Source of the DNA: a virus
DNA: 23,324 nucleotides
IMG/VR virus record: IMGVR_UViG_3300021960_009982
Span: 1-23,324 of that record
Strand: one strand, 5' to 3'
Below are positions 1,374 through 20,702 of the stretch, piece after piece. The position numbers and the translations under genes are program-made. Each line of letters begins with the position of its first letter. Position 1 is the stretch's first letter. A model generated the notes under the pieces. That model had not been told where the DNA came from. It ran no database searches and saw nothing but the letters and a program-made list of their open reading frames with translations.

Positions 1374-2645
1374 ATGGAACTAATCTTTGCCATTGTACTT
1401 GGTGTAATTGTAGGAATTGGAGCCGGTTTGCTACCGGCCCTTCCTGTGTTTACGGGACCTATGCTTCTTTACTATTTTGTAAATGAGCAGTATTCTCTAC
1501 TTGCAATTCTCATCTTCTGGATGACGTCATATTGTGGTACTCAGTACTATGGATCTATTGCCACTATCACAACTGGTATACCTGGTGAAGAATCATCAGC
1601 AATCTACTTAAAAGATATCAGTGCTCTGACTCTGAATCAGAAACGAACTCTACTCTATGACACTGCACTTGGCAGTGCAATTGCTTCTATTGCAGCTCTC
1701 GTTCTCTTATGGGCTGCGATTCGATTTGGATCTGTTTCGATCTTTCCTTTCTTGCTTTCCCTTGAAGTTCAACTTACAGTTTTTGGCCTTGCTTTCTTTT
1801 CATTTCTGTTTATGAATAATGAACGACGATGGGTTATTCTCTTATGCATGATCTTTGGTCTATTACTCGGTCCAAGACAGAACTATTCATTACCTGATTA
1901 TTGGTATGACATAACCACACTTATGAATGGGTATACACTGTACATGGTTGTCCTTGGAACGGTGCTTATTCCATCGATCTTCTCAGAGTACTCAAACGTC
2001 ATATCACGCGACGTGCACGGAAAACCAGTGAAGGGTATAATCTCTCCATTCGTGTATCTGAGGGGAACACTGATCGGTTGTCTTGCTGGGCTTATACCTG
2101 GACCATCCGCTTCGATTGCTACTATGTATGCGTATCGATTTGAAAGGAATGTCTATAACAAAGTTACGTCAGCAGAAACAGCAAACAATGCTGCTGTCAT
2201 TACATGTATCATACCATTCTTTTTGCTTGGTCTACCAATCAATCAAAATACTCTGATCATGTCAAATATCATGGATCTCTATAGTATAAATATCATTGAC
2301 GAAATAGTAACGCATATCGATACTCTTGCGGTGATAATGCTTGGAGTTGTTTCGTTTTATTTCGTAATGAGTACACGTCTTATCGATGTGTATGCGCAAG
2401 CTGTAAGACTATTGCATGGTCAAATGAAATGGATCGTTCTAATCCTTCTATTGACTCTTATAGGAATGGATCTGTACTATACAGAAATTACGTATCTGAG
2501 ATATGGTATTCTGTTATCGTTCTTTACTCTTGTTGGTTTCATTCTTCAAAGATTGAACGTATCTCCAATTCCTTTTCTATTCTCAATAATCTTAGCAGAT
2601 AAAATCATCTGGCTGACAAGCCAAGCAATAAGGATATACTTATGA
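1374..2645 (+). CDS. tctA: TctA-family (tripartite tricarboxylate transporter) large permease subunit
   Basis: Protein of 423 residues with about ten to twelve hydrophobic segments. It carries both signatures of TctA permeases: the first repeat YGSIATITTGIPGEESS (residues 59-75, family pattern YGGSxTxILxxxPGE) and the second repeat GLIPGPSASIA (239-249) followed by SAETANNAA (266-274, family pattern PEAANNA) and FFLLGLPIN. TctA is the membrane channel of tripartite carboxylate uptake systems. Cellular TctA proteins are usually near 500 residues; this one is shorter, notably between the PGPSASIA and ETANNAA motifs, where the family's FGxGxxxG stretch is missing. There is no clear Shine-Dalgarno before ATG 1374. 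It overlaps by ATGA a TctC-like gene; no separate TctB gene is visible. Probably a host-derived auxiliary metabolic gene; substrate unknown. Confidence 0.88.
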   Translation: MELIFAIVLGVIVGIGAGLLPALPVFTGPMLLYYFVNEQYSLLAILIFWMTSYCGTQYYGSIATITTGIPGEESSAIYLKDISALTLNQKRTLLYDTALGSAIASIAALVLLWAAIRFGSVSIFPFLLSLEVQLTVFGLAFFSFLFMNNERRWVILLCMIFGLLLGPRQNYSLPDYWYDITTLMNGYTLYMVVLGTVLIPSIFSEYSNVISRDVHGKPVKGIISPFVYLRGTLIGCLAGLIPGPSASIATMYAYRFERNVYNKVTSAETANNAAVITCIIPFFLLGLPINQNTLIMSNIMDLYSINIIDEIVTHIDTLAVIMLGVVSFYFVMSTRLIDVYAQAVRLLHGQMKWIVLILLLTLIGMDLYYTEITYLRYGILLSFFTLVGFILQRLNVSPIPFLFSIILADKIIWLTSQAIRIYL

Positions 2646-5982: not shown

Positions 5983-6011
5983 TTTACATTTGCTGTGCTT
6001 TATGGTAGAAT
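5983..6011 (+). promoter_or_regulatory. Sigma70-type promoter with extended -10 (P2)
   Basis: TTTACA (5983-5988), 17-bp spacer, TAGAAT (6006-6011) preceded by TATGG. It follows the terminator directly, so a new transcript begins near 6018. That makes the ATG at 6018 leaderless and supports ATG 6045 as the true start. Confidence 0.85.
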
Positions 6012-6044
6012 CTAACTATGATAAAGAAATGTAAAGGAAACGAA

Positions 6045-6892: not shown

Positions 6893-7139
6893 ACAAGCTG
6901 AACCAAGTCCATCGTACTATGCATTCTCGGTTCTAACTGATCGAGGATTGTATAGATACTATGCAACCTTTATTGAAAATGTGAAGAGCATCGATAAAAT
7001 CAGTCACGTTCTGTGCGCGCCTGATGGAGTTATACATATTCTTCCAGCTGATGCTTGGGGAATTGGTTGCTTTCCAAGTCAAATGACTCTCAAAGAGTAT
7101 ATTATGAAGGAGATTGAGAATGGCACTGACTGCGCTTAG
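6873..7139 (+). CDS. Small phage protein of unknown function (88 aa)
   Basis: Overlaps the end of the HAD gene by 20 bases and is preceded by AAGGAGA. The product is aromatic at the N-terminus (MPYYQNKQAEPSPSYYAF), followed by an alternating beta pattern (RGLYRYYATFIENV, GVIHILPADAWGIGCF) and a terminal helix (LKEYIMKEIEN). No family was recognised. It overlaps the following gene by 20 bases. Confidence 0.7.
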   Translation: MPYYQNKQAEPSPSYYAFSVLTDRGLYRYYATFIENVKSIDKISHVLCAPDGVIHILPADAWGIGCFPSQMTLKEYIMKEIENGTDCA

Positions 7140-8283
7140 AGGAAAAAGAATTGTTAAGCCAAAAAAGGCTAGAGCTGGATCTAGAAGCTATGATGAAAAG
7201 TATCTAGGAACTGAACCAATGCCCACGGGAGATCCTGAAAAGGATATTCTCGAAATGAAGAGAGCTGGGAATTGGTACAACTACATGTACAATTCTAAGG
7301 AGGGCGTGACTAAGTTTGTCTATCCATTCTTTGCTAAGGATAAGGCAACCCTCAAGCTTTTGAAGGCACTCCCTGAATGGAGGATTGGTATTACCTTTGC
7401 TGGTCTATGTCGTCTTAAGACTAATGGGTTTACCCTCAGGGAATCTAGTCAGGAATGGTTCGACAATCGTCTAAAGGAGATCAAAGCAGAAGGTGCTGCG
7501 GCTCTTAAAGAAAAAAGTAAGGAACAGGTTGTTGAATCTCGTAAGCCAGTCGTGACCATTCAGGATCGTACTAAGGCTATTATTGATGATCACATTTCTG
7601 AACTTGAAGGAGTGCTTGACGAGTACTACCTTTCAAACTACAAAATGGAATTCAGTTGCTATGATTGGCTAACCAAGAATTCTGTTAAGCCAGGTAATGT
7701 TGGTCCTATCATTCAATGGTATACACCAGTGCTTGAAGAGATCCGTGAACTGAATGAAGGTAAGGATGAACAACTCAATGAGGGTTATAGCAATCTTACT
7801 AAGAAACAGCAAAAGGATTACCTTAAGTGGCTAGAGACTCTAGTGTCTGATCTTAAGCGCTATGCTGATAATACTAAGAAGGTTCGCAAGGCTCGGGTTA
7901 AGAAGCCACCTTCAATCGAGAAGCAGATCAAAAGCCTTAAGTACCTAGATAAGTCCGATGAATATAAGTTGGCATCCATCAACCCAGCTGATATCATCGG
8001 TGCACAGGCACTATGGGTATTTGATACTTCTAATAGAGAATTGGCTGTGTATCGAGCAATCACACCAGGTCCTGGTCTCGTCATTAAAGGAACTACCATC
8101 ACTGAATGGAGTGAAGGTGCATCCACCAAAAAGAAACTACGTAAACCAGATGAGACTCTACAAGAGCTTCTCAAAGCTGGTAAGCGTCAACTTCCTAAGT
8201 TCATGGATGAACTAACCACTCGTGGAAGTAGGCCGAAAGATCGGATAAATAAGAATATGATACTACTACGGATCGAATCATGA
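7120..8283 (+). CDS. Conserved-looking phage protein of unknown function (387 aa)
   Basis: ATG 7120 (MALTALRGK) follows AAGGAGA; a TTG six bases upstream is less likely. The protein is Lys-rich. The N-terminal part (about 30-120) contains GDPEKDILEMKRAGNWYNYMY and PEWRIGITFAGLCRL; a long helical middle (about 125-270) has charged, coiled-coil-like stretches; a compact C-terminal domain (about 270-345) includes LWVFDTSNRELAVYRA and GTTITEWSEG. The overall style is that of T4-like phage proteins of unknown role. The stop overlaps the next start (ATGA). Confidence 0.7.
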   Translation: MALTALRGKRIVKPKKARAGSRSYDEKYLGTEPMPTGDPEKDILEMKRAGNWYNYMYNSKEGVTKFVYPFFAKDKATLKLLKALPEWRIGITFAGLCRLKTNGFTLRESSQEWFDNRLKEIKAEGAAALKEKSKEQVVESRKPVVTIQDRTKAIIDDHISELEGVLDEYYLSNYKMEFSCYDWLTKNSVKPGNVGPIIQWYTPVLEEIRELNEGKDEQLNEGYSNLTKKQQKDYLKWLETLVSDLKRYADNTKKVRKARVKKPPSIEKQIKSLKYLDKSDEYKLASINPADIIGAQALWVFDTSNRELAVYRAITPGPGLVIKGTTITEWSEGASTKKKLRKPDETLQELLKAGKRQLPKFMDELTTRGSRPKDRINKNMILLRIES

Positions 8284-8645
8284 CGGCAACTGCAGCTAAC
8301 AACGTCATCGAGTTTCCTTTGGATCGGGCGGGAGCAGTTCCGCCCCGTCCTCCGGAAGACATGATGAAGGATATGGCTGATCGTAGGCGTGCGTTTGTAG
8401 ACAAGATCGTTGAGGATATTGGCAATGAGGTATATGCAAAGATCTTATTTCATGGCTTCCCTGCCAAGACTCAACCATTCATAGCTAGATATTCTTATGT
8501 TCTGGAATCTCTAAGGTCATGTCTATATTGGACTATTGAAGAGGAACATCCTTTCTCTCATCATATCCAAGACATTATCAACCAGTTCCATGAAGACATT
8601 AGTGATCTATTCGAAGAAGAAGATAACCCTGATCCTACAGGTTAG
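8280..8645 (+). CDS. Small acidic phage protein of unknown function (121 aa)
   Basis: Starts in an ATGA overlap. The N-terminus contains NVIEFPLDRAGAVPPRPPED, a short NVIEFP opening of a kind seen on small proteins in myoviruses. The rest is helical, with an acidic tail (DISDLFEEEDNPDP). No enzymatic motif. Last gene of the P2 unit; promoter P3 lies in the 62 bases that follow. Confidence 0.65.
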   Translation: MTATAANNVIEFPLDRAGAVPPRPPEDMMKDMADRRRAFVDKIVEDIGNEVYAKILFHGFPAKTQPFIARYSYVLESLRSCLYWTIEEEHPFSHHIQDIINQFHEDISDLFEEEDNPDPTG

Positions 8646-8648
8646 CTG

Positions 8649-8677
8649 TTTACAATGATTTGATTCTATGATAGAAT
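8649..8677 (+). promoter_or_regulatory. Sigma70-type promoter with extended -10 (P3)
   Basis: TTTACA (8649-8654), 17-bp spacer, TAGAAT (8672-8677) preceded by TATGA. It precedes the RNase H gene (ATG 8708) and a nearly unbroken run of plus-strand genes to about 20.7 kb. Confidence 0.8.
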
Positions 8678-8707
8678 AATATCTATTGTGGAATAGAGTG
8701 AAGAAAA

Positions 8708-9580
8708 ATGATACTAGTTGATCTTAATCAGGTTATGATTAGCAACCTTATGGTTACTATCAATAGCCGTTATTTCGATGGCGATCTTAATGAAGATCTT
8801 ATTCGCCATCAAGTTCTTAATACAATCCGTTTCTACAGGACTAAGTTTTCTGATAAGTATGGAGAACTAGTTATCTGTTGTGACGATCGTCATTATTGGC
8901 GCAGGGATGTATTTCCTTACTATAAAGCTGGTCGTAGAAAAGACAGAGAAGCTTCTGATCTAGATTGGCATATGATCTTTGAAGTCCTTAAATCTATTAA
9001 GGATGAAATCAAAGACATATTTCCTTATAAGGTTATCCAGGTACATGGTGCTGAAGCTGATGATGTGATTGGTACCTTATGTCATCAGTATGGACATCTA
9101 GGTATCAATGGTAATAACCCAGAACCAATTCTGGTACTCTCATCTGATAAAGACTTCGTACAACTACAGAAGTATGCAAATGTAGATCAATATAGTCCAA
9201 TTCAAAAGAAGTTCGTAAGGTGCAGTAATCCTGCTAGATATATCCATGAGCATATTATCAAAGGTGATCGTGGAGATGGTGTACCTAACTTCTTATCTGA
9301 TGATGATACCTTTGTTGCCAGTAAAAGACAAAAACCGATCTCATCAAAAAAGATCGATAATTGGAATGGTATGAATCCATCTGAGTTTTGCGATGAACGT
9401 ATGCTTAGGAACTACAAGCGCAATCAACAGCTTGTTGACTTGGATTTTATTCCAAAGGAACTACAACAAAATATTCTAGATGAATATGAAAACTATGATG
9501 TGAATGACAGAAGCAAACTGTTTAATTATTTCATTGCAAAGAAGTTACGTAATTTAATGGATTCAATACAGGAGTTCTAA
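8708..9580 (+). CDS. rnh: T4 RNase H-type 5'-3' flap exonuclease
   Basis: Protein of 290 residues, close to T4 RNase H (305). It carries the acidic metal-binding set of the FEN-1/5'-nuclease family: Asp5 (ILVDLNQ), Asp59-Asp60 (CCDDR) followed by YKAGR (72-76), Glu116/Asp118/Asp119 (AEADDVIG), Asp147/Asp149 (SSDKDF) and the helix-hairpin start GDRGDGVPN (186-194). In T4 this enzyme removes RNA primers and flaps from Okazaki fragments and is one of the phage replication proteins. First gene behind promoter P3, with AGTGAAG as ribosome-binding site. All key acids appear intact, so it is likely active. Confidence 0.92.
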   Translation: MILVDLNQVMISNLMVTINSRYFDGDLNEDLIRHQVLNTIRFYRTKFSDKYGELVICCDDRHYWRRDVFPYYKAGRRKDREASDLDWHMIFEVLKSIKDEIKDIFPYKVIQVHGAEADDVIGTLCHQYGHLGINGNNPEPILVLSSDKDFVQLQKYANVDQYSPIQKKFVRCSNPARYIHEHIIKGDRGDGVPNFLSDDDTFVASKRQKPISSKKIDNWNGMNPSEFCDERMLRNYKRNQQLVDLDFIPKELQQNILDEYENYDVNDRSKLFNYFIAKKLRNLMDSIQEF

Positions 9581-10015
9581 ATGCAGAAATCGATTTCAGA
9601 AATCTTAGAGGAAGCGTCTAAGATTGATAAGCGATATGGAAGACTCAAGCATCTCCAAGAGAATAGCTCAGCCGCTCTAAAGGCAGTACTTGGATTTTGT
9701 TTTGACCCAAAGATCAAATGGCTATTGCCTGAAGGAGCTCCTCCGTACAAGGCAGCTGATACAGGTGAAGACCTACAGGGCGTACTCTATTCTGAGTATC
9801 GTAGGATGTGGATCTTTGTTGAGTCGGTAGAATACAAGGATCTTAGACAAATGAAAAGAGAGCAATTGTTTTCTCAATTCCTTGAAGGTCTAGATCCGGA
9901 TGATGCTAAGCTTATCATTTCAATTAAGGATGGGAAGATGCCGTATAAGGGTATCACTAAGCCTTTAGTTGCAGAAGCCTTTCCTAACCTTGCAAAGGAT
10001 TGGGATCCAGCATGA
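9581..10015 (+). CDS. Conserved T4-like phage protein (DUF6433-like)
   Basis: Protein of 144 residues beginning immediately after the RNase H stop, with GGAG as ribosome-binding site. The sequence SISEILEEASKI, then LKAVLGFCFDPKIKWLLPEG and PPYKAAD, then DDAKLIISIKDGKMPYKGIT, matches a small helical family (DUF6433, from memory) widespread in T4-like cyanophages and related myoviruses, usually beside replication genes. Function is unknown. Its place next to the RNase H gene suggests a replication- or DNA-linked role, but the sequence does not show one. Overlaps the next gene by ATGA. Confidence 0.75.
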   Translation: MQKSISEILEEASKIDKRYGRLKHLQENSSAALKAVLGFCFDPKIKWLLPEGAPPYKAADTGEDLQGVLYSEYRRMWIFVESVEYKDLRQMKREQLFSQFLEGLDPDDAKLIISIKDGKMPYKGITKPLVAEAFPNLAKDWDPA

Positions 10016-10611
10016 GTAAGGCTTTTATCATTGGCAATGGAACGTCTAGGAAAGATTTTGATCTAACCAAGATTACCAACGCACATGGTATAACTATTGG
10101 ATGTAATGCTGTTCATCGTGATCGTAGAACTTGGCCTGATTATCTAGTAGCTATTGATGATGGTATTATTACAGAGATTGAAGGCTCTGAGTTTCCAGCT
10201 ATCCGATGCTTGTTTCCGCCTGAAGACGAAAGGTGGGAACCAGCAGACTGTAATCCAGCACGGCCTAGATCAAATGCTGGAGTTAATGCTATGCTTGAAG
10301 CAATTAAGATGGGTTGCACCGATCTATGGTGTCTTGGTTTTGATTTCTTAATGGTTGGAACCGAAGGCTTGGATAATATGTTCAAGGGTACTAATAATTA
10401 TGGACCTGAGACAGCTACATCTTATGCTGATAGTATTCGAAGAGTAAAGTACTTAGAATACATTGCACGAAAGAATCCTGATGTAAACTTTTATTTTGTA
10501 TTTAAGTCAGGCTATCAGTATAAGGTTGTTAATCAACCAAATATTCGTGGATGTTTCTATGAAGATTTTGAGAAGTGGTTAGATAGTAATGCCTCACATA
10601 ACAACAACTGA
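10012..10611 (+). CDS. Rossmann-like phage protein, glycosyltransferase- or DUF115-like
   Basis: ATG 10012 overlaps the upstream stop (ATGA); a TTG at 10000 is less likely. The 199-residue product opens with a nucleotide-binding-type loop, FIIGNGTSR (5-13), then TIGCNAV and PDYLVAIDDGI, and later AGVNAMLEAIKMGCTDLWCLGFDF. GNGxS followed by a conserved CNA and DYLVAID recalls DUF115/MptE-like and sialyltransferase-like proteins found in phages and surface-glycan clusters. Substrate unknown. With the 2OG oxygenase next door, it could belong to a modification pathway. The 3' end overlaps the next gene by 23 bases. Confidence 0.55.
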   Translation: MSKAFIIGNGTSRKDFDLTKITNAHGITIGCNAVHRDRRTWPDYLVAIDDGIITEIEGSEFPAIRCLFPPEDERWEPADCNPARPRSNAGVNAMLEAIKMGCTDLWCLGFDFLMVGTEGLDNMFKGTNNYGPETATSYADSIRRVKYLEYIARKNPDVNFYFVFKSGYQYKVVNQPNIRGCFYEDFEKWLDSNASHNNN

Positions 10612-11203
10612 AATTAAAGCAAGATATGGAGTAGGAGCTCCATACCTAGAACAATGGTCTGCTATTACATGGTATGATGATGCCTTTACCGATGAAGAGT
10701 GCGATAAAGTTCTAGAACTATATAAAGATATTGAACGTAGAACTGCTGTTGTCGGTAAACAAGATGAAGCTGAAGTCAATGAATCAATGAGGAAGTCTGA
10801 CGTAAGTTGGATATATCCTAATCCAGATAATTTCTGGATGTATGATCTTATTGGCCACTATGCTCAAGAGGCAAACACATATCGTTGGCGTATGGACATT
10901 GGTGGATTCCAAGAGCCTTTACAGTTTTCTCATTACGGTCCTAATGGTGGTCACTATGGCTGGCATTTGGATATTGGCCAGATGAAACCTTCCCTTAGGA
11001 AGCTATCATTCTCTTTGATTTTACAGAATGCAGATAAAGGTGGAGAGTTAGCGTTTTTGACTAGTGAAAATGAAACTAGGCTTAATCTAAAACGTGGTAC
11101 TATTGTATTCTTCCCATCTTATATTCTGCATAAAGTTTATCCAGTAACAGCTGGTGATAGGTTTAGTATTGTGGGATGGCTAGGTGGTGAACACTATCGA
11201 TGA
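10589..11203 (+). CDS. 2-oxoglutarate/Fe(II)-dependent oxygenase (PKHD-type)
   Basis: Protein of 204 residues with a complete facial triad: H126-x-D128 in HYGWHLDIG, H181 in YILHKVYPV, and R191 in DRFSIVGW for the 2-oxoglutarate carboxylate. The spacing and surrounding strands (KLSFSLILQN, GGELAFL, GTIVFFPSY) match the prolyl-4-hydroxylase/PKHD group. These enzymes hydroxylate an amino-acid side chain, nucleobase or small molecule while turning 2-oxoglutarate into succinate. They are frequent in T4-like phages and their targets are mostly unknown. It overlaps both neighbours, so it is co-expressed with the Rossmann-like protein and the following conserved phage protein. Confidence 0.88.
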   Translation: MPHITTTEIKARYGVGAPYLEQWSAITWYDDAFTDEECDKVLELYKDIERRTAVVGKQDEAEVNESMRKSDVSWIYPNPDNFWMYDLIGHYAQEANTYRWRMDIGGFQEPLQFSHYGPNGGHYGWHLDIGQMKPSLRKLSFSLILQNADKGGELAFLTSENETRLNLKRGTIVFFPSYILHKVYPVTAGDRFSIVGWLGGEHYR

Positions 11204-11766
11204 ATATATTTGTAGTAGATAATGATCCAAAGATTGCAGCGCAATCTCTATGTGACAAACACATTGTGAAGATGGTTACTGAATCAGCACAAATGCTGTC
11301 AACTGTTCATAGGTTACTTGATGGTATTGAATATAAGAAGCCATCAAAGTCAGGTAAGCGTCTAATCAAAGCATGGAAACTGAATGACCATAGAGAATCA
11401 TTACTCATGGGTGCAGTGCATATGCATCATCCATGTACAGTATGGTCTATGGAATCTTCAGGTAATTATGTTTGGCATTATCTACATTATGTGGCTCTAG
11501 CTGAAGAATATACATATCGTTATGGAAAGGAACATGGATCATTTGTTAATGGTGAAAAGTTTCCAAAGATTGGAAATACTTTAGCAACACCACCAAAGAA
11601 TATGCCAAACGGTCCACGTACTGATTTTGCAATTGCAATGTCTAAATATCCAGAATGTATAATCAAAGAGGATCCTATTACTTCTTATAGGAATTACTAT
11701 CATGTTGCAAAAAAAGACTTTGCAGTATGGACTCGAAGGGAAGCTCCAGAATGGTACTCTATATAA
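11200..11766 (+). CDS. Conserved phage protein, putative pyrimidine-dimer-glycosylase-like family
   Basis: Protein of 188 residues. The pattern DKHIVKMVTESAQMLSTVHR near the N-terminus, HPCTVWSMESSGNYVWHYLH in the middle and YRNYYHVAKKDFAVWTRREAPEW at the end belongs to a family recurrent in T4-like phages and some bacteria. It is often annotated loosely as related to pyrimidine dimer DNA glycosylase because of the HPCxxWxRxSxxNYxW core, but no activity is known to me. The start overlaps the oxygenase stop by ATGA. Its stop codon lies within a TATAAATA element that may serve the next gene. Confidence 0.7.
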   Translation: MNIFVVDNDPKIAAQSLCDKHIVKMVTESAQMLSTVHRLLDGIEYKKPSKSGKRLIKAWKLNDHRESLLMGAVHMHHPCTVWSMESSGNYVWHYLHYVALAEEYTYRYGKEHGSFVNGEKFPKIGNTLATPPKNMPNGPRTDFAIAMSKYPECIIKEDPITSYRNYYHVAKKDFAVWTRREAPEWYSI

Positions 11767-11769
11767 ATA
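11762..11769 (+). promoter_or_regulatory. T4-like late promoter element TATAAATA
   Basis: A perfect TATAAATA, the T4 late -10 consensus, overlaps the preceding stop codon. With initiation a few bases downstream, a short leader would carry the GGAAG site and ATG 11788. The motif is short and AT-rich, so the match could be chance. Confidence 0.45.
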
Positions 11770-11787
11770 AATTTGATGGAAGCAATC

Positions 11788-12102
11788 ATGCCAACATATA
11801 CATTTGAGAATACAAAAACTGGCGAGGTGTGGGATGACCTAATGTCCTACTCCGAAAAAGTCAGTTTTCTTGAAGAACACCCGCATATTAAATCCATCAT
11901 CACTCAAGTCAACATTGTTACCGGCGAGAAGATGCAATTCAAAAACTCTTCTGGTTGGAACACTCACCTAGATCGTATTGCCGCTGCAAATCCTAACTCT
12001 GCTCTTGCAGAAGAGCGTGGAGGAAAAGACGTGCGCACCGTCAAGACTAGACAAGCTGTAGAGAAATGGAGGAAGAAGCGAGCGGCCGATCCAAACAAGT
12101 AA
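11788..12102 (+). CDS. FmdB-like conserved phage protein (104 aa)
   Basis: ATG 11788 (MPTYTFENTKTGEVW) follows GGAAG at a good distance; ATG 11776 and TTG 11773 are alternatives. The start resembles the FmdB zinc-ribbon N-terminus (MPxYxFxCxxCG), but the Cys pairs are missing, so no zinc site is expected. The rest, HPHIKSIITQVNIVTGEK, SGWNTHLDRIAAANPNSALAEE and VKTRQAVEKWRKKR, follows a pattern I recall from small T4-like cyanophage proteins of unknown role. The very basic C-terminal helix suggests nucleic-acid or protein contact. A late-type promoter element lies just upstream. Confidence 0.65.
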   Translation: MPTYTFENTKTGEVWDDLMSYSEKVSFLEEHPHIKSIITQVNIVTGEKMQFKNSSGWNTHLDRIAAANPNSALAEERGGKDVRTVKTRQAVEKWRKKRAADPNK

Positions 12103-12112
12103 GGAAAGCTCC

Positions 12113-12886
12113 ATGTCGAGAGGTTATAGCGCCGAACAATTTTTTGAAGAAGAACACTTAGATTATAACCTACCTCACAATATTTTCAAAGACAGAGTTA
12201 AAGGAAAAAAGAAGCAGAAACCAAATCTATCGCTCAAGATTAAAGATATAGAACCAAGAACTAATACTCAACAACTAGTTTTTGACTCCTATTATTCTGG
12301 TCAAAACATGCTGCTTCATGGAATGGCAGGTACTGGCAAAACCTTCGTATCCACTTATCTTGCTCTTAATGATATTCTCTCCAAACAAACCGATAAAGAA
12401 AAGCTAGTCATTCTTAGATCGGTAGTACCAACTAGGGACATGGGATTCCTCCCCGGAAATCAAGCAGAAAAACAAAAGGTTTATGAAGCTCCATATAGCG
12501 CTATATGTTCAGAGCTTTTTGGTAGAGGAGACGCTTACCAGATCTTGAAGTCAAGAGATCTGATAGAGTTTACCTCTACTTCTTTTATCAGGGGCATAAC
12601 AATTAACAATGCAATTGTCATAGTTGATGAATGCCAAAACATGACATTCCATGAATTGGATTCAGTCATTACTAGGATGGGAGAAAATGTTCAGCTCATT
12701 TTCTCTGGAGACTTTAGACAAAGCGACTTTAAGTGGAAAGACGAAAGAGATGGAATTCTTAATTTCATCAAGATCATAAACAATATGGACTTCTTTGATT
12801 CAATAGAGTTCTATGCTAACGATATCGTAAGAAGCCCAATGGTCAAACAATATATAATTGAAAGAGCCAATCACGGACTAATGTAA
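12113..12886 (+). CDS. phoH: PhoH-like P-loop ATPase
   Basis: Protein of 257 residues. Walker A is GMAGTGKT (70-77), the second conserved block RSVVPTRDMGFLPG (102-115) and Walker B IVDECQNMT (170-178), followed by SGDFRQ (198-203); together these define the PhoH/superfamily 1-like ATPase. PhoH genes are widespread in marine and other myoviruses. The role is unsettled: RNA-related ATPase or helicase and a phosphate-stress link have been proposed. About 48 residues precede the NTQQ segment, with a basic patch KGKKKQKP. Start ATG 12113 has AAGGAAA upstream. Confidence 0.92.
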   Translation: MSRGYSAEQFFEEEHLDYNLPHNIFKDRVKGKKKQKPNLSLKIKDIEPRTNTQQLVFDSYYSGQNMLLHGMAGTGKTFVSTYLALNDILSKQTDKEKLVILRSVVPTRDMGFLPGNQAEKQKVYEAPYSAICSELFGRGDAYQILKSRDLIEFTSTSFIRGITINNAIVIVDECQNMTFHELDSVITRMGENVQLIFSGDFRQSDFKWKDERDGILNFIKIINNMDFFDSIEFYANDIVRSPMVKQYIIERANHGLM

Positions 12887-12887
12887 C

Positions 12888-13571
12888 ATGAAATTTTATT
12901 ATGCTCCCCGCGGGGATTTCGATTTAGACTTTGCTAGAGATATTTGCACTCCTTGTAGGAATAATAATCCACCTTGGTATAAGGACATGGGTTTCTTCCT
13001 ACAAGGAGCTAAGTCTGTAAAAGATTATTGGTCTAAACTAAGTCAACCAAATAAGTTACAAGCTGAAGCATTCACAACAATTAAAGCATGCCCAGGCTTT
13101 AGAGATTTATTTGCAAACAGTTTTATTATCAAGTTTCCTTGTGACCTTCTCTTAGAGACCAAAGAGGATGGAGGTTTCACTTGGAAGATTCCAAGCTCTG
13201 ATGAAATTCTAAAAATTATGAATCACAATTCAGAGCAGATGGTCAGTCCAGTTACTGATAAATACTTAGTATTCAAGTTTGAATTACCTTACCTCATGGC
13301 TGGTAAAGGTAACACTCTTGTTTTCATGGATCCAATTTACTGGAAAGAACAACCATATAAGGTAGTACCTGGTGTGGTTAAACTCCATGATGTCAATAGA
13401 GGTTTAGGCTTTAGTGTGCTAATCTTTATTGAGAAAAAAGATTCGGTGTATCACTTCAAAAAGGGCGAACCAATGGCATTGTTGTATATGCCAGAAAAGA
13501 CTCAAATGGTTCAGAAAAAACTTAGGACTTTTGTCAAAAAAGAGTTCATTTTAGAATATGGAAAAAAATAA
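12888..13571 (+). CDS. Phage protein of unknown function (227 aa)
   Basis: Starts one base after the PhoH stop. The product has a Cys/His-poor fold with IKACPGFRDLFANSFIIKFPCDL (residues 65-87), then YLVFKFELPYLMAGKGN and VVPGVVKLHDVNRGLGFSVLIFIEK, ending in KKEFILEYGKK. The CPGF...NSFIIKFPCD stretch resembles a small family (possibly DUF6065-like) seen in some myoviruses and biosynthetic clusters; this is recall and untested. It reads like a double-stranded beta-helix or other all-beta fold. The stop overlaps the next start (TAATG). Function not assignable. Confidence 0.65.
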   Translation: MKFYYAPRGDFDLDFARDICTPCRNNNPPWYKDMGFFLQGAKSVKDYWSKLSQPNKLQAEAFTTIKACPGFRDLFANSFIIKFPCDLLLETKEDGGFTWKIPSSDEILKIMNHNSEQMVSPVTDKYLVFKFELPYLMAGKGNTLVFMDPIYWKEQPYKVVPGVVKLHDVNRGLGFSVLIFIEKKDSVYHFKKGEPMALLYMPEKTQMVQKKLRTFVKKEFILEYGKK

Positions 13572-14245
13572 TGTTCATGCATTTACAAGGCTATGACTCA
13601 ATTAAGCTTAACGTGATTGAAGGTGTTGATGGAGGTCCAAGACTTTATGAAACGCCGGATGGTTATCAATATCCATCTATCACTTCAGTACTTTCTATTC
13701 TAAGCGAAGATTCAATTCGCAAATGGAAGGAAAGAGTTGGAGAAGAAGAGGCAGCCAAGATTGGTCGTAAGGCTGCTACTCGTGGAACAAAGATTCATAA
13801 TATGTGCGAAGCATATATTAACAATGATAGATATGAGTCAACGGATATTACACCTCTTGATACTGAAATGTTTGGACAGCTTAAGTCAGTCTTAGATGCT
13901 TATGTTACAGATGTGTTTGCACAAGAAACTACTCTCTATTCTGATGAGTTACAAACAGCAGGAAGATGCGATTTAGTTGCTAAGTTCCTTGGCACTCCTG
14001 CAATTATTGATTTCAAGACAAGCTCAAAAGAAAAGAAAGAGCAATGGATTCAAAGTTATTTTCAACAGACAACTGCCTATTCTCTCATGTTTGAAGAGAT
14101 GTATAATCAAAAGATTGATAAAGTGGTAGTCATTATTGCAGTAGAAGAAACAGGTAAACCACAAGTGTTTGTTCGAAAGAAAGATAAATATATTGAAGCA
14201 TTGAAAAACACTAGACAATTATATAGAGATAAGTACAATAGATAA
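13571..14245 (+). CDS. RecB/Cas4-like PD-(D/E)XK nuclease
   Basis: Protein of 224 residues with the PDDEXK_1 pattern in order: RGTKIHNMCEAY (71-82, His76 and Glu80), AGRCDLVA (130-137, Asp134), IIDFKTSSKEK (145-155, Asp147 and Lys149), and QSYFQQTTAY (161-170, the Gln-Tyr motif after the catalytic core). This arrangement is typical of phage exonucleases related to RecB, Cas4 and mitochondrial MGME1, which degrade single-stranded ends or host DNA. No Cys set for a Fe-S cluster is visible, so it is not a true Cas4. TAATG overlaps join it to both neighbours. ATG 13577 is an alternative start. Confidence 0.88.
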   Translation: MFMHLQGYDSIKLNVIEGVDGGPRLYETPDGYQYPSITSVLSILSEDSIRKWKERVGEEEAAKIGRKAATRGTKIHNMCEAYINNDRYESTDITPLDTEMFGQLKSVLDAYVTDVFAQETTLYSDELQTAGRCDLVAKFLGTPAIIDFKTSSKEKKEQWIQSYFQQTTAYSLMFEEMYNQKIDKVVVIIAVEETGKPQVFVRKKDKYIEALKNTRQLYRDKYNR

Positions 14246-15264
14246 TGGCACTAAAGTATGTAATTCCACCAAGCTCAATCTATCGCGACGATTATCATCC
14301 ACTCATAGATTACTTTACTGGCAGATTTTTAGATAGATCTAAACAGGCAAAGCTTGGATTCCAGTATCACGTAAGAGATCCATTGCCAACTAGTATGCCA
14401 GCTAATCCTGGCGACTTTGATTTTTGTATGGATGAAAGAGCTAAACAAATTGAGTTAGCTCAAAAAGAAGCGGGTAAGCCTCTTGCTCTTTTATGGTCTG
14501 GTGGCTGGGATTCCACTTCAATTGCTGTTGCTCTAATGAAAGCCGGTTTGAAGTTTAAAGTTATCTATACTGAATCTTCAATGATGGAGAATCCTAATTT
14601 CTATAAGGATATCTTGTTAAATAATTCTTCCATAGAAATGGAACAAGTAAAGCATCCGCTAAGATGGCTTCATTTTGATGGACCAGACTATGTGATTGTC
14701 ACTGGCGAATGCGGTGCTCAAATGATGGGTACCATCTCATTCAGAAAAATCTTAGTAGGCATGAATAAGTCATTTCATAATATTAGTGAAGGTGTAGATG
14801 AATCCTTTACTGAGTTTATGTCAAACCCAGAGCCTTTATATAAGTGGCCAGATTATTATAAGAATCCAGTCAAACATGTTTTAGATTATTATCCTGGCAC
14901 GCTTAAAACTAATTATGATGCTATGTGGTGGGTTACCTTTGTCTTTAAGTGGCAGGTAGTTCAGTATAGAATGGAACTATTTTCTGGTAAGATCCAGCCA
15001 GATATGCATCATTACTTTTTATGTCCATTGTTTGAAGCATGGTCTATGAATAATGATGCTACAGTTAAATGCCCAGAATATAAATGGGAAAACTATAAGC
15101 TTCCAATGAAAGATTATATATTTAAGTTTCAAGGAAACGAAGATGTTTATGAACTTCAAAAATATGCTTCAATGCAGTTGGCTCAACCGGAAATTCGATA
15201 CGGAGTATATCAAAACAGATATATTTACTTGGATGAAAATAATCAATTTCAGTTAGGACATTAG
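14245..15264 (+). CDS. Asparagine-synthetase-like PP-loop protein, paralogue 1
   Basis: Protein of 339 residues, first of four related proteins. The ATP pyrophosphatase loop is intact: LLWSGGWDSTS (82-92). It is followed by YTESSMMENPNFY (108-120), a block shared with paralogues 2 and 3. The second conserved block, TGECGAQMMG (153-162), corresponds to the AsnB SGEGADELFGG motif, but the Asp is replaced by Ala. MWWVTFVFKWQVVQYR (227-242) and the C-terminal MKDYIFKFQGNED are common to the set. AsnB-type domains adenylate a carboxylate for amide formation; no glutaminase (Cys2) domain is present, so ammonia or another amine would be the nucleophile. The start forms TAATG with the nuclease gene. 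Confidence 0.82.
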   Translation: MALKYVIPPSSIYRDDYHPLIDYFTGRFLDRSKQAKLGFQYHVRDPLPTSMPANPGDFDFCMDERAKQIELAQKEAGKPLALLWSGGWDSTSIAVALMKAGLKFKVIYTESSMMENPNFYKDILLNNSSIEMEQVKHPLRWLHFDGPDYVIVTGECGAQMMGTISFRKILVGMNKSFHNISEGVDESFTEFMSNPEPLYKWPDYYKNPVKHVLDYYPGTLKTNYDAMWWVTFVFKWQVVQYRMELFSGKIQPDMHHYFLCPLFEAWSMNNDATVKCPEYKWENYKLPMKDYIFKFQGNEDVYELQKYASMQLAQPEIRYGVYQNRYIYLDENNQFQLGH

Positions 15265-15267
15265 TGT

Positions 15268-15807
15268 ATGACAACAGTAGTACCCAATTGCGTTTTTCTC
15301 TCTCATGGGACAATCCCATGTTCAGATCTCCAGCATACAATTAAATTTCTTACCGAGCTTTTTGGTTTTGAACATGTTCAAACAAGCGATAATTCAGCTT
15401 CGTTTAGAATGGGTGGAAACTTTTGTTTTAGCGCAATTGAGAATTATGATGAACCACAGGATCTAAATGCTGATAAAGTGAACCATCATTTTGGTATTGA
15501 TATGGCTAATGAAGAAGATATTCAAAAGGCCTATGATATATTGTCTCAACCAGAGATTCTAAAAGAATATAAGATTCAAAAAATTACAGCACCAACACAT
15601 GGTCATGGAACTTACTTCATTTATGTTGTAGACCAAGATAGTATATATTGGGAATTGCTGGTTAATCCACCTGAAGGTTATATGTATAGATTCTTAGACA
15701 AAGATACAAATACAGATAATCGTAAATGGAAGAATCAAGAAAATATGAGAATGGAAAAACAGAAGAAGTGGAAAGATGAAATACCTACTTCCAAGGGTGA
15801 CAACTAA
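15268..15807 (+). CDS. VOC-superfamily (glyoxalase/dioxygenase-fold) protein
   Basis: Protein of 179 residues starting three bases after paralogue 1. Two beta-alpha-beta-beta-beta modules are visible: module 1 FLSHGTIPCSDLQHTIKFLT then LFGFEHVQ and SASFRMGGNFCFSAIE; module 2 NHHFGIDMANEEDIQKAYDI then TYFIYVVDQDSIYWELLVNP. The candidate metal ligands are His in LSHGTI, the NHHFG pair and Glu in YWELL, the VOC arrangement. These proteins act as glyoxalases, extradiol dioxygenases, epimerases or resistance thiol-transferases. The substrate cannot be told. The C-terminal tail after about residue 140 is highly charged. The gene overlaps paralogue 2 by 32 bases, so it is part of the island. Confidence 0.8.
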   Translation: MTTVVPNCVFLSHGTIPCSDLQHTIKFLTELFGFEHVQTSDNSASFRMGGNFCFSAIENYDEPQDLNADKVNHHFGIDMANEEDIQKAYDILSQPEILKEYKIQKITAPTHGHGTYFIYVVDQDSIYWELLVNPPEGYMYRFLDKDTNTDNRKWKNQENMRMEKQKKWKDEIPTSKGDN

Positions 15808-16990
15808 ATTATGGTTTAAGGCTTTCAATTTACTTAAATCACAATTAGAAGAAGAACGGAAAGTAGAGCCATATCCGAAAAGGTATGGCTTTCTTCCTAT
15901 GATCTTCAAGCATCAACTAGAATATTTTGAAGAGAATATGAAGCCAGGATCTAATAAGTATCCTCATGGCTTCTGTGATGCTTATGGTGAAGTTACAACT
16001 GGACTTAGAATCTATAATCATCTACAAACACCAGAGCTTAAGGACTGGGAGATTACATACACCTTTGCCGAGTCTATGCACGACAGAGCACTTCAGCTTA
16101 AAACACTAAGTGATGAGACTCAGCAGAAACTAGTACTATTGTGGTCTGGTGGATTAGACTCATCTGGAGCTTTAATAGCTTTGAATAAAGTTTGTGATCC
16201 AGAGCAACTTAAGATCACTCTTACTGAATCATCAATTGAAGAGAATCCAAACGCGTATCGCAATATCATTGAGAATAGAATTGAGCATACAGTAAATAGA
16301 ACTAGAACTCTTACTGATGATATTCAATATGACAAAGATATAACCATTGCTTGTAATGAAGCAGATGGTTTGATGGGAAGTGTTGGATTGAATGGACCGC
16401 CTTGGCAAAAACCAGCTCCTTGGTGGTGGGATATGGTTAAAGAAGATGGTTGGCTATACAAGGAAGAAAATCGACTACTATTCAGGAAGATTCATTTTCA
16501 GTTTGTAAGATATAGACAACATTATAGTACTCTTAAGTTATTAGGAACAACAAAAGGAAATACAATACCTCTTCATCATATCCAGCCTTTTTACGGACTT
16601 GGCGAAAAGATTCAAAAGTACTTTATCTCTAAATCTTTTAATCTTGACTTAGATTACTATCTACCAGTAAATAACTATGAACTATATACTAAATCAAAAA
16701 TGCCATTGAGACATTATATACATGAAATGACTGGAGATAATTGGGCTTACACTAAAGAAAAGATTAACTCATTTGTCCTTGGTCAATTTGATAGTCAAAG
16801 CGCTCATCCAGATGAACGACTTACTCTTCAAAGAGAAGAAAGAGTATTAGGGTTGACAAAAGATGGACAGGTCATTTCACCAGACAATATTATAGAGTTT
16901 GATTTAGAACCATATATAGATTATGAGGGTATGAAACCCCATCAAGAAAAGCATGTTGCAGAATTCTTGAGTAACCGGAGTAAAACATAA
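15776..16990 (+). CDS. Asparagine-synthetase-like PP-loop protein, paralogue 2 (divergent)
   Basis: Protein of 404 residues. The PP-loop is intact, LLWSGGLDSSGAL (121-133), and LTESSIEENPNAY (149-161) matches paralogue 1. The second motif is degraded: ACNEADGLMG (192-201) where the family has SGEGADELFG. The C-terminal element KMPLRHYIHEMTGD is recognisable but altered, and an extra C-terminal stretch of about 60 residues (LTLQREERVLGLTKDGQ and on) exceeds paralogue 1. It probably still binds ATP; it may be a divergent enzyme or a partner subunit. It overlaps the VOC gene by 32 bases and meets the cupin gene in TAATG. Confidence 0.8.
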   Translation: MKYLLPRVTTKLWFKAFNLLKSQLEEERKVEPYPKRYGFLPMIFKHQLEYFEENMKPGSNKYPHGFCDAYGEVTTGLRIYNHLQTPELKDWEITYTFAESMHDRALQLKTLSDETQQKLVLLWSGGLDSSGALIALNKVCDPEQLKITLTESSIEENPNAYRNIIENRIEHTVNRTRTLTDDIQYDKDITIACNEADGLMGSVGLNGPPWQKPAPWWWDMVKEDGWLYKEENRLLFRKIHFQFVRYRQHYSTLKLLGTTKGNTIPLHHIQPFYGLGEKIQKYFISKSFNLDLDYYLPVNNYELYTKSKMPLRHYIHEMTGDNWAYTKEKINSFVLGQFDSQSAHPDERLTLQREERVLGLTKDGQVISPDNIIEFDLEPYIDYEGMKPHQEKHVAEFLSNRSKT

Positions 16991-17637
16991 TGCTTACGTT
17001 TAATGGAATAGGCGAGTTTGATCGATTCAATACTATGTACCCATCCAAAGTTGAAAGCATTAGCGATGGAATTAAAACAACAATCCCTTATAGTACGGTG
17101 TATGGCTATTGTGCAAAAGGAGAAATTGAGCTACCAAATCTTTGGATGGTAAAAGAAGGCGAGTATTTCTCTTACTCATCTGTTGAAGAAGAATCAATTT
17201 ATGTTTCTGATTATGGCAAAGCAATCTTCTTTACTAGGCTTGGTCATATGCATCAAAATAATCTAGGTGGTCCAATTGAATCATCAGGACGACTATGTTA
17301 TATTGATGGATGCAGCGATAGTCTTTTAATCTATCCAAGTAGAGCTGGAGATCCAAGCTTAAATCTTCTACATTTTCCAGAAAATATCAATCAAACTCTT
17401 CACATTCATCCAAGTGTTAGACTTGGATATATTGCAAAAGGATCCGGAATTTGTTGGACTACAGATAATATCTATAATCTTGAAGAGGGAATGATTTTTT
17501 GTATTGAAGAACGTGAACTCCATAGATTTACTACATCGAATTCTGAGATGACGGTTATTGCATATCATCCAGATGGAGACTGGGGTCCAACTGATCAAAA
17601 TCATACAATGCTTAATAGGACTTATACAATCAAATGA
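16990..17637 (+). CDS. Cupin-domain protein
   Basis: Protein of 215 residues. The C-terminal half has the cupin pattern: TLHIHPSVRLGYIAKGSGICW (residues 136-156; His138 and His140) and LEEGMIFCIEERELHRF (164-180; His178). The usual Glu after the HxH pair is not evident, so metal ligation may be incomplete. The N-terminal half also reads as alternating beta strands (GEIELPNLWMVKEGEYFSYS), so a bicupin is possible. Cupins include oxygenases, isomerases and binding proteins. It begins in TAATG with paralogue 2 and ends in ATGA with the next gene, hence co-translated with the island. The natural substrate is unknown. Confidence 0.75.
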   Translation: MLTFNGIGEFDRFNTMYPSKVESISDGIKTTIPYSTVYGYCAKGEIELPNLWMVKEGEYFSYSSVEEESIYVSDYGKAIFFTRLGHMHQNNLGGPIESSGRLCYIDGCSDSLLIYPSRAGDPSLNLLHFPENINQTLHIHPSVRLGYIAKGSGICWTTDNIYNLEEGMIFCIEERELHRFTTSNSEMTVIAYHPDGDWGPTDQNHTMLNRTYTIK

Positions 17638-18362
17638 GGAAATCTATCTCAGGCTCTGGAGTACCAGACGCACCAGGCGAACCAATCTTTCTAATTAAAG
17701 ATGATCGCAATGATGGAATTATCAGAACAACAATGTTACCTGAAGCAGCTCATGCTGTACTTTTAAGATATTCATACTTGTCACTTAGAACTACAATGCC
17801 ATATTTTCGTGGATCTATTTTTGGACAAGGAACTGAGTTGTCTCTAAATAATATGACTCAAGGCTGGATATGGAAAGATAAAGAGCCAAAAGGACATCCT
17901 ATAGTTCCTATGCCTCCAGATTTATTTAACTATGATTGGCAAAACTTTAGAACTAAAGTCTTTGAAGAAGTCTCTCAATACGAGCATTTGTTTCAAACAT
18001 TAACTATGGGATCTGAAATTTGGACTTCAACTACTTTAAGCATGATCAATAGATTTCCAGATGTTGTAGTTCGAGAATTAAATGCATGTGACCCAGATAA
18101 TAATCAATATTCTGAAAACTTTAAGATCTATGCGTCATATCAATCATGCGATATTAAAACAGCATATGATGAATTAGCAAGGGATATAGATTTTGACAAT
18201 AAAATAAAAATGAAAACACTTGGTATTTGGAATCAAATTGTAGAGAAATCTTTAGATTGTGAAAAAGAACAAGACTGGATAGATTTGAGAGTATATCTAA
18301 GGTTGATGTTATTTAATGGTGGAGGAACTAATTCTTCCACTAGGTGGAGTAACTTTCAATGA
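17634..18362 (+). CDS. Unknown protein within the PP-loop island (242 aa)
   Basis: Joined by ATGA overlaps to the cupin before and paralogue 3 after, so it belongs to the same unit. The N-terminus (MRKSISGSGVPDAPGEPIF) is Gly/Pro-rich; the middle contains AAHAVLLRYSYLSLRTTMPYFRG and a region rich in Trp and aromatics (GWIWKDKEPKGHP, FNYDWQNFR); the C-terminal third is helical and charged (DIKTAYDELARDIDFDNKIKMK). No signal peptide, membrane helix or catalytic motif was recognised. It could be a scaffold or carrier-like partner of the PP-loop proteins, but nothing in the sequence shows this. Confidence 0.7.
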   Translation: MRKSISGSGVPDAPGEPIFLIKDDRNDGIIRTTMLPEAAHAVLLRYSYLSLRTTMPYFRGSIFGQGTELSLNNMTQGWIWKDKEPKGHPIVPMPPDLFNYDWQNFRTKVFEEVSQYEHLFQTLTMGSEIWTSTTLSMINRFPDVVVRELNACDPDNNQYSENFKIYASYQSCDIKTAYDELARDIDFDNKIKMKTLGIWNQIVEKSLDCEKEQDWIDLRVYLRLMLFNGGGTNSSTRWSNFQ

Positions 18363-19474
18363 GTGAGCTCTTTCTTATAACGTCTGATTCTAAAATTTAT
18401 ACTGATGACCTGCATAATCCACCATCATTTGATGTTGCAGCTTATTTGAGTATTAACAAATTAGTTGGTAGATTAACTTGCCAAAACATTTGTGATAGAA
18501 CAGGATATGTTAATACACCATATAAGTTCAAACGGTTTATTCCAATACCCGCATTACCAAGTGAGACTAATGCTCTTTCATTTTCAGATTTATGCGATGA
18601 TAGAGCTCATGAACTTATAAAATATAGTAATGATATCGGTAAACCATTATTGGTTATGTGGAGTGGCGGAATTGATAGCACTACTCTTCTTACTGCTCTT
18701 ATTAAGACTAAAAGTCTTGATAATATTATAGTAGGAATGTCAGTCCATTCAATTAGAGAAAACCCGAACTTTTATTATAAACATATTCGTGGTAAGATTA
18801 AAACTATTCCTTCTAACATTGCTTTATCTAAAATTAAAAATGATATGATATTAGTAGCGGGTGAAGGTGCTGATCAACTATTTGGAACTGATATCTACAA
18901 AAAAATAAATGTGAACATTGGTCTTGGTGTTATGACTGAACCATACTCAAAAACCAATATTGTTAGCTTTCTTAGATCAGTTAATATGACTGATGCAGAA
19001 GCTGATAAATGGTTTTTCATATTGGATGACCAAATCAAACATACTCAACTATGTGAGATTAAAACATTCAAAGACTTTTGGTGGTGGTACAATTTTTGCT
19101 ATAAGTGGCAATTTGTATTTTTTAGAACTCTTATTATGGCAGATCAAATTGGGCGTGAATATATTACAAAGGATTGGATCAATACTAACTTCAAACAGTT
19201 CTTTATGACTAATGCATTTCAAAGATGGTCTATGCTAAATCCAAATCTTAAAAGAGTAGATACGTGGACCTCATATAAAATAGAAGCTAAGAAGTATATA
19301 TTTGAGTTTGATAAGAATCAAGACTATTTTGATAACAAAGTAAAAATGTCTAGTATGATCAACCTAATTAGAAGTACTCATTCTATGATTGGTGGTATGG
19401 ATTCGAATTATGAAATGCTTCCACCAAGTTTTGATTTAACGCCATATAGGCAGATGGAGAATTCATTTGTATAA
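18359..19474 (+). CDS. Asparagine-synthetase-like PP-loop protein, paralogue 3
   Basis: Protein of 371 residues. It has an intact PP-loop, MWSGGIDSTTLLTAL (100-114), and the best AsnB-like second motif of the set, AGEGADQLFGTDIY (167-180). HSIRENPNFYY corresponds to the TESSxxENPNxY block of paralogues 1 and 2. FWWWYNFCYKWQFVFFR and KYIFEFDKNQD near the C-terminus align with paralogues 1 and 4. Both catalytic signatures are kept, so ATP-dependent adenylation of a carboxylate is likely. The N-terminal 95 residues are not a glutaminase domain. The start overlaps the upstream stop (ATGA) and the end overlaps paralogue 4 by 8 bases. Confidence 0.85.
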   Translation: MSELFLITSDSKIYTDDLHNPPSFDVAAYLSINKLVGRLTCQNICDRTGYVNTPYKFKRFIPIPALPSETNALSFSDLCDDRAHELIKYSNDIGKPLLVMWSGGIDSTTLLTALIKTKSLDNIIVGMSVHSIRENPNFYYKHIRGKIKTIPSNIALSKIKNDMILVAGEGADQLFGTDIYKKINVNIGLGVMTEPYSKTNIVSFLRSVNMTDAEADKWFFILDDQIKHTQLCEIKTFKDFWWWYNFCYKWQFVFFRTLIMADQIGREYITKDWINTNFKQFFMTNAFQRWSMLNPNLKRVDTWTSYKIEAKKYIFEFDKNQDYFDNKVKMSSMINLIRSTHSMIGGMDSNYEMLPPSFDLTPYRQMENSFV

Positions 19475-20702
19475 AGATCCTTTTTTCGATGAAAGGATAG
19501 AGTTTTATCCAATGTCGCATATTAAGTCTACTGATTCCTTATTTAATTTTATTGAAGAGGATGAACTAGAAATCTATATGCCACAGGTTTTCATTGGTGC
19601 ATTTCTTTTATGTTTATCTCCGGTTAATAGAGTAAGACACAATAAGTTTAAGAACATCGAATTCAATTATATTCCAGTACCTGAATATAAGCCAAACACT
19701 CCTAACTTTGCAGACACAGTAAGAAGTGTTGCTGAAAATATGTGGAAGGACAATGAGAAGATTACTGTCTCTTGGTCTGGTGGAATTGATTCAACTACAG
19801 CTCTTTGTGCTCTTATTGAAACTTGTGATAATTGGAAAGATCGCCTTAGAGTAATCTATACTGACACCAGTGTTTTAGAATATTCAGAGTTTCATGAAAA
19901 GTTTGTAACACAAGTCAAAGATAATATTTTGTGCAGTGAACATGATTTATTTACTAAGCATATACCTAATGCTTTAAATGATAGTCTTGTAACAAGTGGA
20001 GAATGTGGAGATCAAATTTTTGGTAGTATGATTCTAGCTAGTAATCCAGAAAGTATGATTCAACCATATCAATCAATTTTGAATTGGGATCACCTATTAG
20101 GTCCAGATGCAAACTTACATAGATCATCTCCTGTAAATAATGTCGGTAAAGTCTATAAAGACTTAATGTTCAATTATATTGATGAGCAATTATCATATTG
20201 TCCATTTGAAGTAAAGAGTGTCTTTGATTTTTATTGGTGGCTTAACTATACACTTAAGTGGAATCTATGCGTGTATAGAGTGATTGGTAAAGTTCCAGTA
20301 GGAGATGAGTTTAAGATCAAAAATTGGTATCCATTCTATAATGCTCCTGAATTACACCAATGGTCTATTTCTCATCATGAAGAGAAAGTTAAAGTTGGTG
20401 GTAATTGGAAGACCTATAAGCAGCCGGCTAAAGACTATATTTTTACAATTGCTGGAGATGAAGATTATAGAGATAATAAAGTTAAGACCGCGTCTCTTTC
20501 AGAAGAGAGTAGAAAACTAAGTGGATCAATATCGTTCATAAATGAGTCTGGAAAAATTAGACCTTGGGTTGAACAAGAATATGTTGAGAAACTTATAGAC
20601 ATTAAACGCGTTCCATATGGTTCTGATGAAGTACCTCCATACTTCAATGAAGTATATACACGTATGAAACCCTTCTACGATTTCTTATATTTTTATAAAT
20701 AG
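19467..20702 (+). CDS. Asparagine-synthetase-like PP-loop protein, paralogue 4
   Basis: Protein of 411 residues from a TTG start at 19467, chosen because GGAGA lies six bases upstream and it overlaps the previous stop by 8 bases; ATG 19512 is an alternative without a good site. PP-loop VSWSGGIDSTTAL (101-113) and TSGECGDQIFG (176-186) are intact; the TESS block is changed to YTDTSVLEYSEFH. YWWLNYTLKWNLCVYR and YKQPAKDYIFTIAGDEDYRDNKVK match the other paralogues. It has a longer N-terminal part (about 100 residues) and a C-terminal extension of about 55 residues. Last gene of the island; its end (Tyr-Lys-stop) forms a TATAAATA late-type element. Confidence 0.85.
   Translation: MYKDPFFDERIEFYPMSHIKSTDSLFNFIEEDELEIYMPQVFIGAFLLCLSPVNRVRHNKFKNIEFNYIPVPEYKPNTPNFADTVRSVAENMWKDNEKITVSWSGGIDSTTALCALIETCDNWKDRLRVIYTDTSVLEYSEFHEKFVTQVKDNILCSEHDLFTKHIPNALNDSLVTSGECGDQIFGSMILASNPESMIQPYQSILNWDHLLGPDANLHRSSPVNNVGKVYKDLMFNYIDEQLSYCPFEVKSVFDFYWWLNYTLKWNLCVYRVIGKVPVGDEFKIKNWYPFYNAPELHQWSISHHEEKVKVGGNWKTYKQPAKDYIFTIAGDEDYRDNKVKTASLSEESRKLSGSISFINESGKIRPWVEQEYVEKLIDIKRVPYGSDEVPPYFNEVYTRMKPFYDFLYFYK
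20694..20701 (+). promoter_or_regulatory. T4-like late promoter element TATAAATA
   Basis: A perfect TATAAATA overlaps the Tyr-Lys-TAG end of paralogue 4. It lies in the only gap between the PP-loop island and the next gene, which has a very strong GGAGGG site, so a separate late transcript is plausible. Confidence 0.5.

Follow-up and report, generated by a model that had tools for sequence, protein, structure and literature searches.

An island of PP-loop paralogues nearest the AsnB class in a T4-like phage, and a two-gene cassette shared by its relatives

What does a virus gain from several related PP-loop genes packed together with genes for a VOC-fold protein, a cupin and a further protein, X? 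The question is raised by a stretch of 23,324 bases from IMG/VR (record IMGVR_UViG_3300021960_009982; the whole stretch is called the window below), which is part of a T4-like phage, as judged from its genes for T4 RNase H, a PhoH-like ATPase (identified by eye), a pyrimidine-dimer-glycosylase-like protein and a PD-(D/E)XK exonuclease. The island (nt 14245–20702) lies directly 3′ of the exonuclease gene, with all genes on the plus strand in the order A, VOC, B, cupin, X, C, D (Table 1). Gene overlaps throughout had been described in a first-pass annotation made from the letters alone, and all junctions from A to D do overlap, by 1–32 bases, except A/VOC, where a 3-base gap is found. Scans for promoters and terminators gave sites no more numerous than in shuffles.

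Table 1. Genes of the island and associated features of the window.
Feature	Position (nt)	Strand	Remarks
TctA, membrane part of tripartite tricarboxylate transporter	1374..2645	+	PF01970 1.6e-36; 11 kb upstream of island
A, PP-loop paralogue, 339 aa	14245..15264	+	SGGWDST; GECGAQMMGT (second acidic residue is Ala)
VOC-fold protein, 179 aa	15268..15807	+	PF00903 3.3e-7, above cut-off
B, PP-loop paralogue, 404 aa	15776..16990	+	SGGLDSS; most divergent; absent from L002
Cupin, 215 aa	16990..17637	+	PF02311 1.5e-7, above cut-off; HxH...H, metal-enzyme type
X, conserved partner, 242 aa	17634..18362	+	Directly upstream of PP-loop paralogue C
C, PP-loop paralogue, 371 aa	18359..19474	+	SGGIDST, GEGADQLFGT; X-paired member
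D, PP-loop paralogue, 411 aa, TTG start	19467..20702	+	SGGIDST, GECGDQIFGS
E, degenerate fifth paralogue, 410 aa	20744..21976	+	SRPSLD replaces SGGxDS; purifying selection

Towards the left end of the window, nt 83–832 encode a YdcK-type beta-solenoid repeat protein (PF18836, 2.3e-19). In the region 1374–3508, TctA is followed by a periplasmic-protein-like ORF that occupies the position of TctC and has no Pfam hit, so that carboxylate transporter genes are borne by the phage.

When A was searched against the window itself, C, D and B were recovered at 1.7e-27, 1.0e-21 and 3.6e-12, in agreement with the four related SGGxDS proteins of the first-pass annotation, and on this sequence evidence A, B, C and D are regarded as true paralogues. 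The SGGxDS motif is present in all four and in 68/68 aligned members of the family, and GExxD in 52/68. In the acidic motif, C (GEGADQ) and D (GECGDQ) fit GExxDE, whereas A (GECGAQ) and B (NEADG) deviate; the GECGA of A is also kept in its L002 orthologue. Other shared blocks had been described more strictly than the alignments allow. TESSxxENPNxY, ascribed to three proteins, is literal in A and B only, with C carrying SVHSIRENPNFY and D TDTSVLEYSEFH; an insertion in B splits the WW...KW...R block, which A, C and D have in clean form; and the KxYIF block occurs in all four in the looser form K/R-x-YIF/H. Just 83–124 residues precede SGG in the 68 aligned members, bearing out the view that an N-terminal (Ntn) glutaminase domain is lacking. 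A CxxC motif was found in 0/68 members, and the zinc motif C(x)8CxxCxxC of QueC/QatC (PF06508) is absent.

The first-pass annotation had overlooked a fifth paralogue, E, immediately beyond the four. Apart from the lost SGGxDS, it has the N-terminal motif and PP-loop region in common with the family, to which it aligns by hhalign at probability 86–93 (E 5e-6 to 3.5e-7, vs 0.2–0.5 for unrelated control profiles) over 71–72 columns around residues 47–121. E is thus, as far as profile comparison can tell, a family member that has lost its PP-loop. In a quick tree of the PP-loop (PP) genes, those paired with X form two large regions, one of which includes C, while A, B and D represent old, X-less lineages. 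Recent local duplication as the origin of A–D was rejected, being unsupported by this tree, in which B, A and D sit on long branches and are to be read with caution.

Matches of A–D to Pfam, PHROGs and NCBIfam were either PP-loop-sized or below cut-off, the Pfam Asn_synthase model (PF00733), for example, scoring 11.7 bits with C and 12.1 bits with D vs a cut-off of 21. Weak profile matches of the family extend to QueC, TilS, ThiI, MnmA-type and PAPS-reductase models. A search of the PDB with the AlphaFold model of C (pLDDT 92.9) was led by E. coli AsnB (1ct9), human ASNS and TsnB9, with carbapenam and beta-lactam synthetases further down and LarE also among the matches. Most had probabilities of 0.95–1.00, with Foldseek E-values near 1e-3 and TM-scores of about 0.35 (AsnB, the top match: 1.00, 1.5e-3 and ~0.35), values that mark the kinship of C to AsnB as remote. 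A chain of profiles leads to the same class: PP1 matches PP2 (96.3%, E 1.6e-9), a PP2 member (L085:6826-7698) exceeds the Pfam Asn_synthase cut-off, PP1 matches the full-length AsnB-like C70 proteins (92.9%, E 3.6e-7), whose GDGGD stands opposite GExxDQLFG, and the C70 proteins match AsnB at 8e-21. When E. coli AsnB, QueC and GuaA were each used as a single control, the PP-loop alone aligned, slightly better for QueC than for AsnB, so the family is placed by its fold, by its GExxD motif and by the chain of profiles. The PP-loop fold itself is almost certain, and the assignment of A–D as glutaminase-free PP-loop ATPases nearest the AsnB class (the C-terminal domain of asparagine synthetase B) is supported, in keeping with the first-pass annotation; a fold outside the PP-loop ATPases, which would have spoken against it, was not what the search returned.

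The VOC and cupin identities proposed earlier also held, at 31.2 bits (cut-off 20.6) for PF00903 and 31.6 bits (cut-off 21.1) for PF02311. H138, H140 and H178 are invariant in the cupin alignment, and the nearest solved proteins are acireductone dioxygenases (6.8e-5). X, modelled at pLDDT 84.8, has no supported family in Pfam or PHROGs, no fold match in the PDB, and only uncharacterised phage proteins as matches in BFVD. Its alignment is too variable for a pattern scan, and its N-termini vary (MR, ML, MN, MS and others) with no conserved glycine motif. Small proteins encoded upstream of X-less PP genes were considered as remote homologues of X; the best E-value, 8e-4, is too weak to claim.

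A second virus (L002) carries A, VOC, cupin, X, C, D and E in this order, without B. Gene identities between the two are about 52–86% (A 77%, VOC 84–85%, D 86–87%). Their shared genes show purifying selection (pN/pS 0.13–0.47, VOC 0.13; rough ratios, since dS is near saturation), with A, VOC and D as constrained as core phage genes and cupin, X, C and E evolving faster. A, VOC and D were otherwise found only in L001, which is the same virus. X–PP is found again in many viruses, as is the cupin. At least 514 relatives were confirmed when IMG/VR was scanned with profiles, and 80 of them were taken forward. Across 77 non-redundant viral loci with 110 PP genes, 49 of these genes have X immediately upstream, the stop of X and the start of PP usually overlapping by 4 bases, which identifies X–PP as a conserved two-gene cassette; co-occurrence counts of this kind are biased towards the PP family, by which the loci were found. 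The collections searched are fragmentary, and gene calls by script took the longest ORF greedily, missing at least one PP gene (L108). Single unlinked copies are not the rule among relatives: 20 long virus records, chosen by the analyst, hold one to seven PP copies each, with two or more in 19/20 and seven in a 244 kb record. The cassette adjoins the exonuclease family that flanks the island in L085 and L084, and lies close to it in L061 and L076. X–PP is also found in candidate-phylum bacteria, Bdellovibrionales and a Polynucleobacter contig with tail genes (L160), and PP with cupin but without X in Bacteroidota, Planctomycetes and Verrucomicrobiota.

Protein searches of INPHARED gave no match for A, B or the cupin, and C matched Pseudomonas phage Cygsa01 only. 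Cygsa01, the one INPHARED phage with the family, has two PP copies in its tail-gene region, and no X was found. Both copies (L027, nt 6679–8921) are annotated MnmA, which looks wrong.

Organic-anion transporter genes are unusually close neighbours of the cassette. Genes of the SSF, DctP and TctC clusters, labelled by the Pfam hits of one member each (one SSF-cluster member has no Pfam hit of its own), adjoin X/PP in relatives; 20/24 lie within 1.5 kb, vs 9.3 expected, a nearness reached in 0/5000 within-locus permutations, and the linkage is seen in viruses and bacteria. The TctA of the window is possibly linked in function to the island. Genes for an ACP, a desaturase, a radical-SAM protein, AdoMet decarboxylase, an amidase, a carbamoyltransferase, and YcaO together with SagB are among the further neighbours. 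In L085, L090, L091 and L160 the order is a tail-tip-like (Cys-x)n protein, a radical-SAM gene, one or more small proteins, X and PP, with the cupin after X–PP in the last three. PP lies directly 3′ of, or near, Gly-rich tail-type genes in L027, L095, L096, L104 and L106. Radical-SAM cassettes have been described in the tail-fibre hypervariable region of T4-like pelagimyophages (PMC7029224).

Several individual loci have features of their own. The tail-tip-like proteins with C-terminal (Cys-Ala/Asp/Asn)n repeats (L085, nt 2623–3120; L090, nt 4654–5064; L091, nt 4657–5067; L160, nt 4866–5261), each followed by the radical-SAM gene, are candidate modified tail peptides. YcaO and SagB-type genes occur a few kb from X–PP in candidate-phylum bacteria (L109, L110, L111 and L118), and L110 has a small Gly/Cys-rich ORF nearby (nt 2497–2796, minus strand). 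A viral island in L032 (nt 611–6891) combines ACP, acetyltransferase-like genes, a PP-loop gene, a fatty-acid desaturase, radical-SAM/SPASM and oxygenase-like genes, and L116 (nt 2774–13001, Bdellovibrionales) carries a carbamoyltransferase, a cupin, two PP2 genes, X–PP, an amidase and an SSF-type transporter.

AsnB-class PP-loop enzymes adenylate a carboxylate, and by family chemistry those of the island probably do the same; formation of an amide product, judged on the same basis, is moderately probable. Gene order suggests that X is likely to be a physical partner. The preferred reading, put forward tentatively and with slightly less than even confidence, is that the island is a tailoring operon for ATP-dependent carboxylate activation and amide formation, in which X would work with C, the cupin and VOC proteins would act alongside, and E would be non-catalytic. 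The glutaminase-free synthetases would adenylate the carboxylate with ATP; lacking a glutaminase, they would depend on free ammonia or an amine of the substrate as the nucleophile that attacks the adenylated carboxylate to give an amide. X would be the dedicated adaptor or partner of C, while A, B and D could act on other intermediates, or elsewhere on one and the same product. Gene order suggests a joint pathway, to which the cupin and VOC proteins would probably contribute as metal-dependent enzymes of oxygenase or isomerase type; E would perhaps be a scaffold. The most likely starting carboxylate would be a small organic acid or an amino acid, in keeping with the tight packing of transporter genes and cassettes in relatives and with the TctA of the window phage. 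The 11 kb between transporter and island in the window counts against this reading, and some relatives lie within tail-gene modules, where a protein would be as fitting a target as a small molecule. Both a small organic acid and a peptide or tail protein fit better as target than a nucleobase.

The strongest rival, unlikely though it is, holds that the cassette modifies phage proteins or peptides, with X-guided PP-loop enzymes forming amides on tail-tip (receptor-binding) proteins or, as in RiPP systems, on ribosomal peptides. The (Cys-x)n and radical-SAM genes that precede X–PP, the PP genes at Gly-rich tail-type genes and the bacterial YcaO and SagB genes all point this way, as do Cap9 and QatC, which pair with a neighbouring partner whose N-terminus is modified or proposed to be so (PMC13279940). 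The overall nearness of PP to Gly/Cys-rich tail-type genes is, however, not significant (15 vs 11.8 expected, p = 0.057); no gene of this kind lies near the island in the window, and most cassettes were not seen beside tail genes. The RiPP likeness, radical-SAM or YcaO/SagB with Cys/Gly-rich small proteins beside the cassette, is seen in one viral clade and some candidate-phylum bacteria, whereas the window has no recognised precursor or maturase, and X–PP is not described as a RiPP component in the literature searched. Distinctly less probable is a combination in which X–PP would be a new class of phage conjugase, the AsnB-like enzyme, targeted by X, amide-linking an imported small carboxylate to virion tail-tip proteins or peptides, with paralogues differing in substrate; if true, it would unite the transporter linkage with the radical-SAM/cysteine-repeat tail-tip context. 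That the island is a loose pile of unrelated auxiliary genes is improbable: A, B and D are indeed old separate lineages rather than recent duplicates, and A, VOC and D have a very narrow distribution, but the gene order is shared with L002 at about 52–86% identity, the genes overlap, and X–PP and the cupin recur in many viruses.

PP-loop chemistry also includes sulfur transfer (ThiI, MnmA and LarE), which sequence alone cannot separate from amide formation. A LarE-, ThiI- or PAPS-reductase-like activity in its place would be consistent with the match of D to a PHROG labelled PAPS reductase (3.4e-6) and with LarE among the fold matches, and is considered very improbable given the lack of CxxC, the resemblance of GExxDQLFG to the AsnB sequence GEGSDEVFGGY, and a fold list led by AsnB, ASNS and TsnB9. 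Nucleobase modification, one of the roles floated in the first-pass annotation, or a QueC-, TilS- or MnmA-like role on tRNA, has a slimmer chance still. The matches to QueC, TilS and ThiI that favour it, alongside the MnmA labels in Cygsa01, are confined to the PP-loop region, CxxC is absent from the aligned members, and around the cassette there is no recurring gene for queuosine, deazaguanine or base hypermodification; nucleobase modification was rejected on motif and context. A Qat-type defence or counter-defence pair was rejected on the same two grounds and is rated just as low. Like QatC–QatB and Cap9–CD-NTase (PMC13279940, PMC13329287), the cassette joins a PP-loop enzyme to a dedicated adjacent partner, and neither QatB nor X has a fold homologue of known function. 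The family nevertheless lacks the zinc-cysteine motif and X the N-terminal glycine; PADLOC assigns no family to A, C, D, E, X or the cupin; and the QatC match of B is negligible (16.7 bits in PADLOC, 25 vs a cut-off of 280 in NCBIfam). X–PP is, moreover, spread in viruses and linked to transporters and cupins, unlike Qat. By analogy of logic, the QueC-family partner-modifying enzymes (PMC13279940) would be the nearest published counterpart.

Returning to the tailoring operon, the family resembles AsnB, beta-lactam/carbapenam synthetase and TsnB9 in SGGxDS, in the GExxD of most members and, remotely, in nearest overall fold, and differs from AsnB-type synthetases in having no Ntn domain, in scoring below Pfam and NCBIfam cut-offs, in its pairing with X and in its many paralogues per virus. 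It is unnamed in curated families, and no description of X–PP or the PP-loop island as a system was found in the literature searched. The question is testable, since an isolated phage, Cygsa01, has two PP genes and a contig of a Polynucleobacter genome has the family together with X. With up to seven PP-loop genes per record, large viruses from the environment appear to be equipped with dedicated chemistry for amide bonds. A small-molecule product would mean that viral genomes specify biosynthetic routes supplied by transporters which they also encode; if proteins are modified, the receptor-binding proteins of the tail tip may be chemically decorated.
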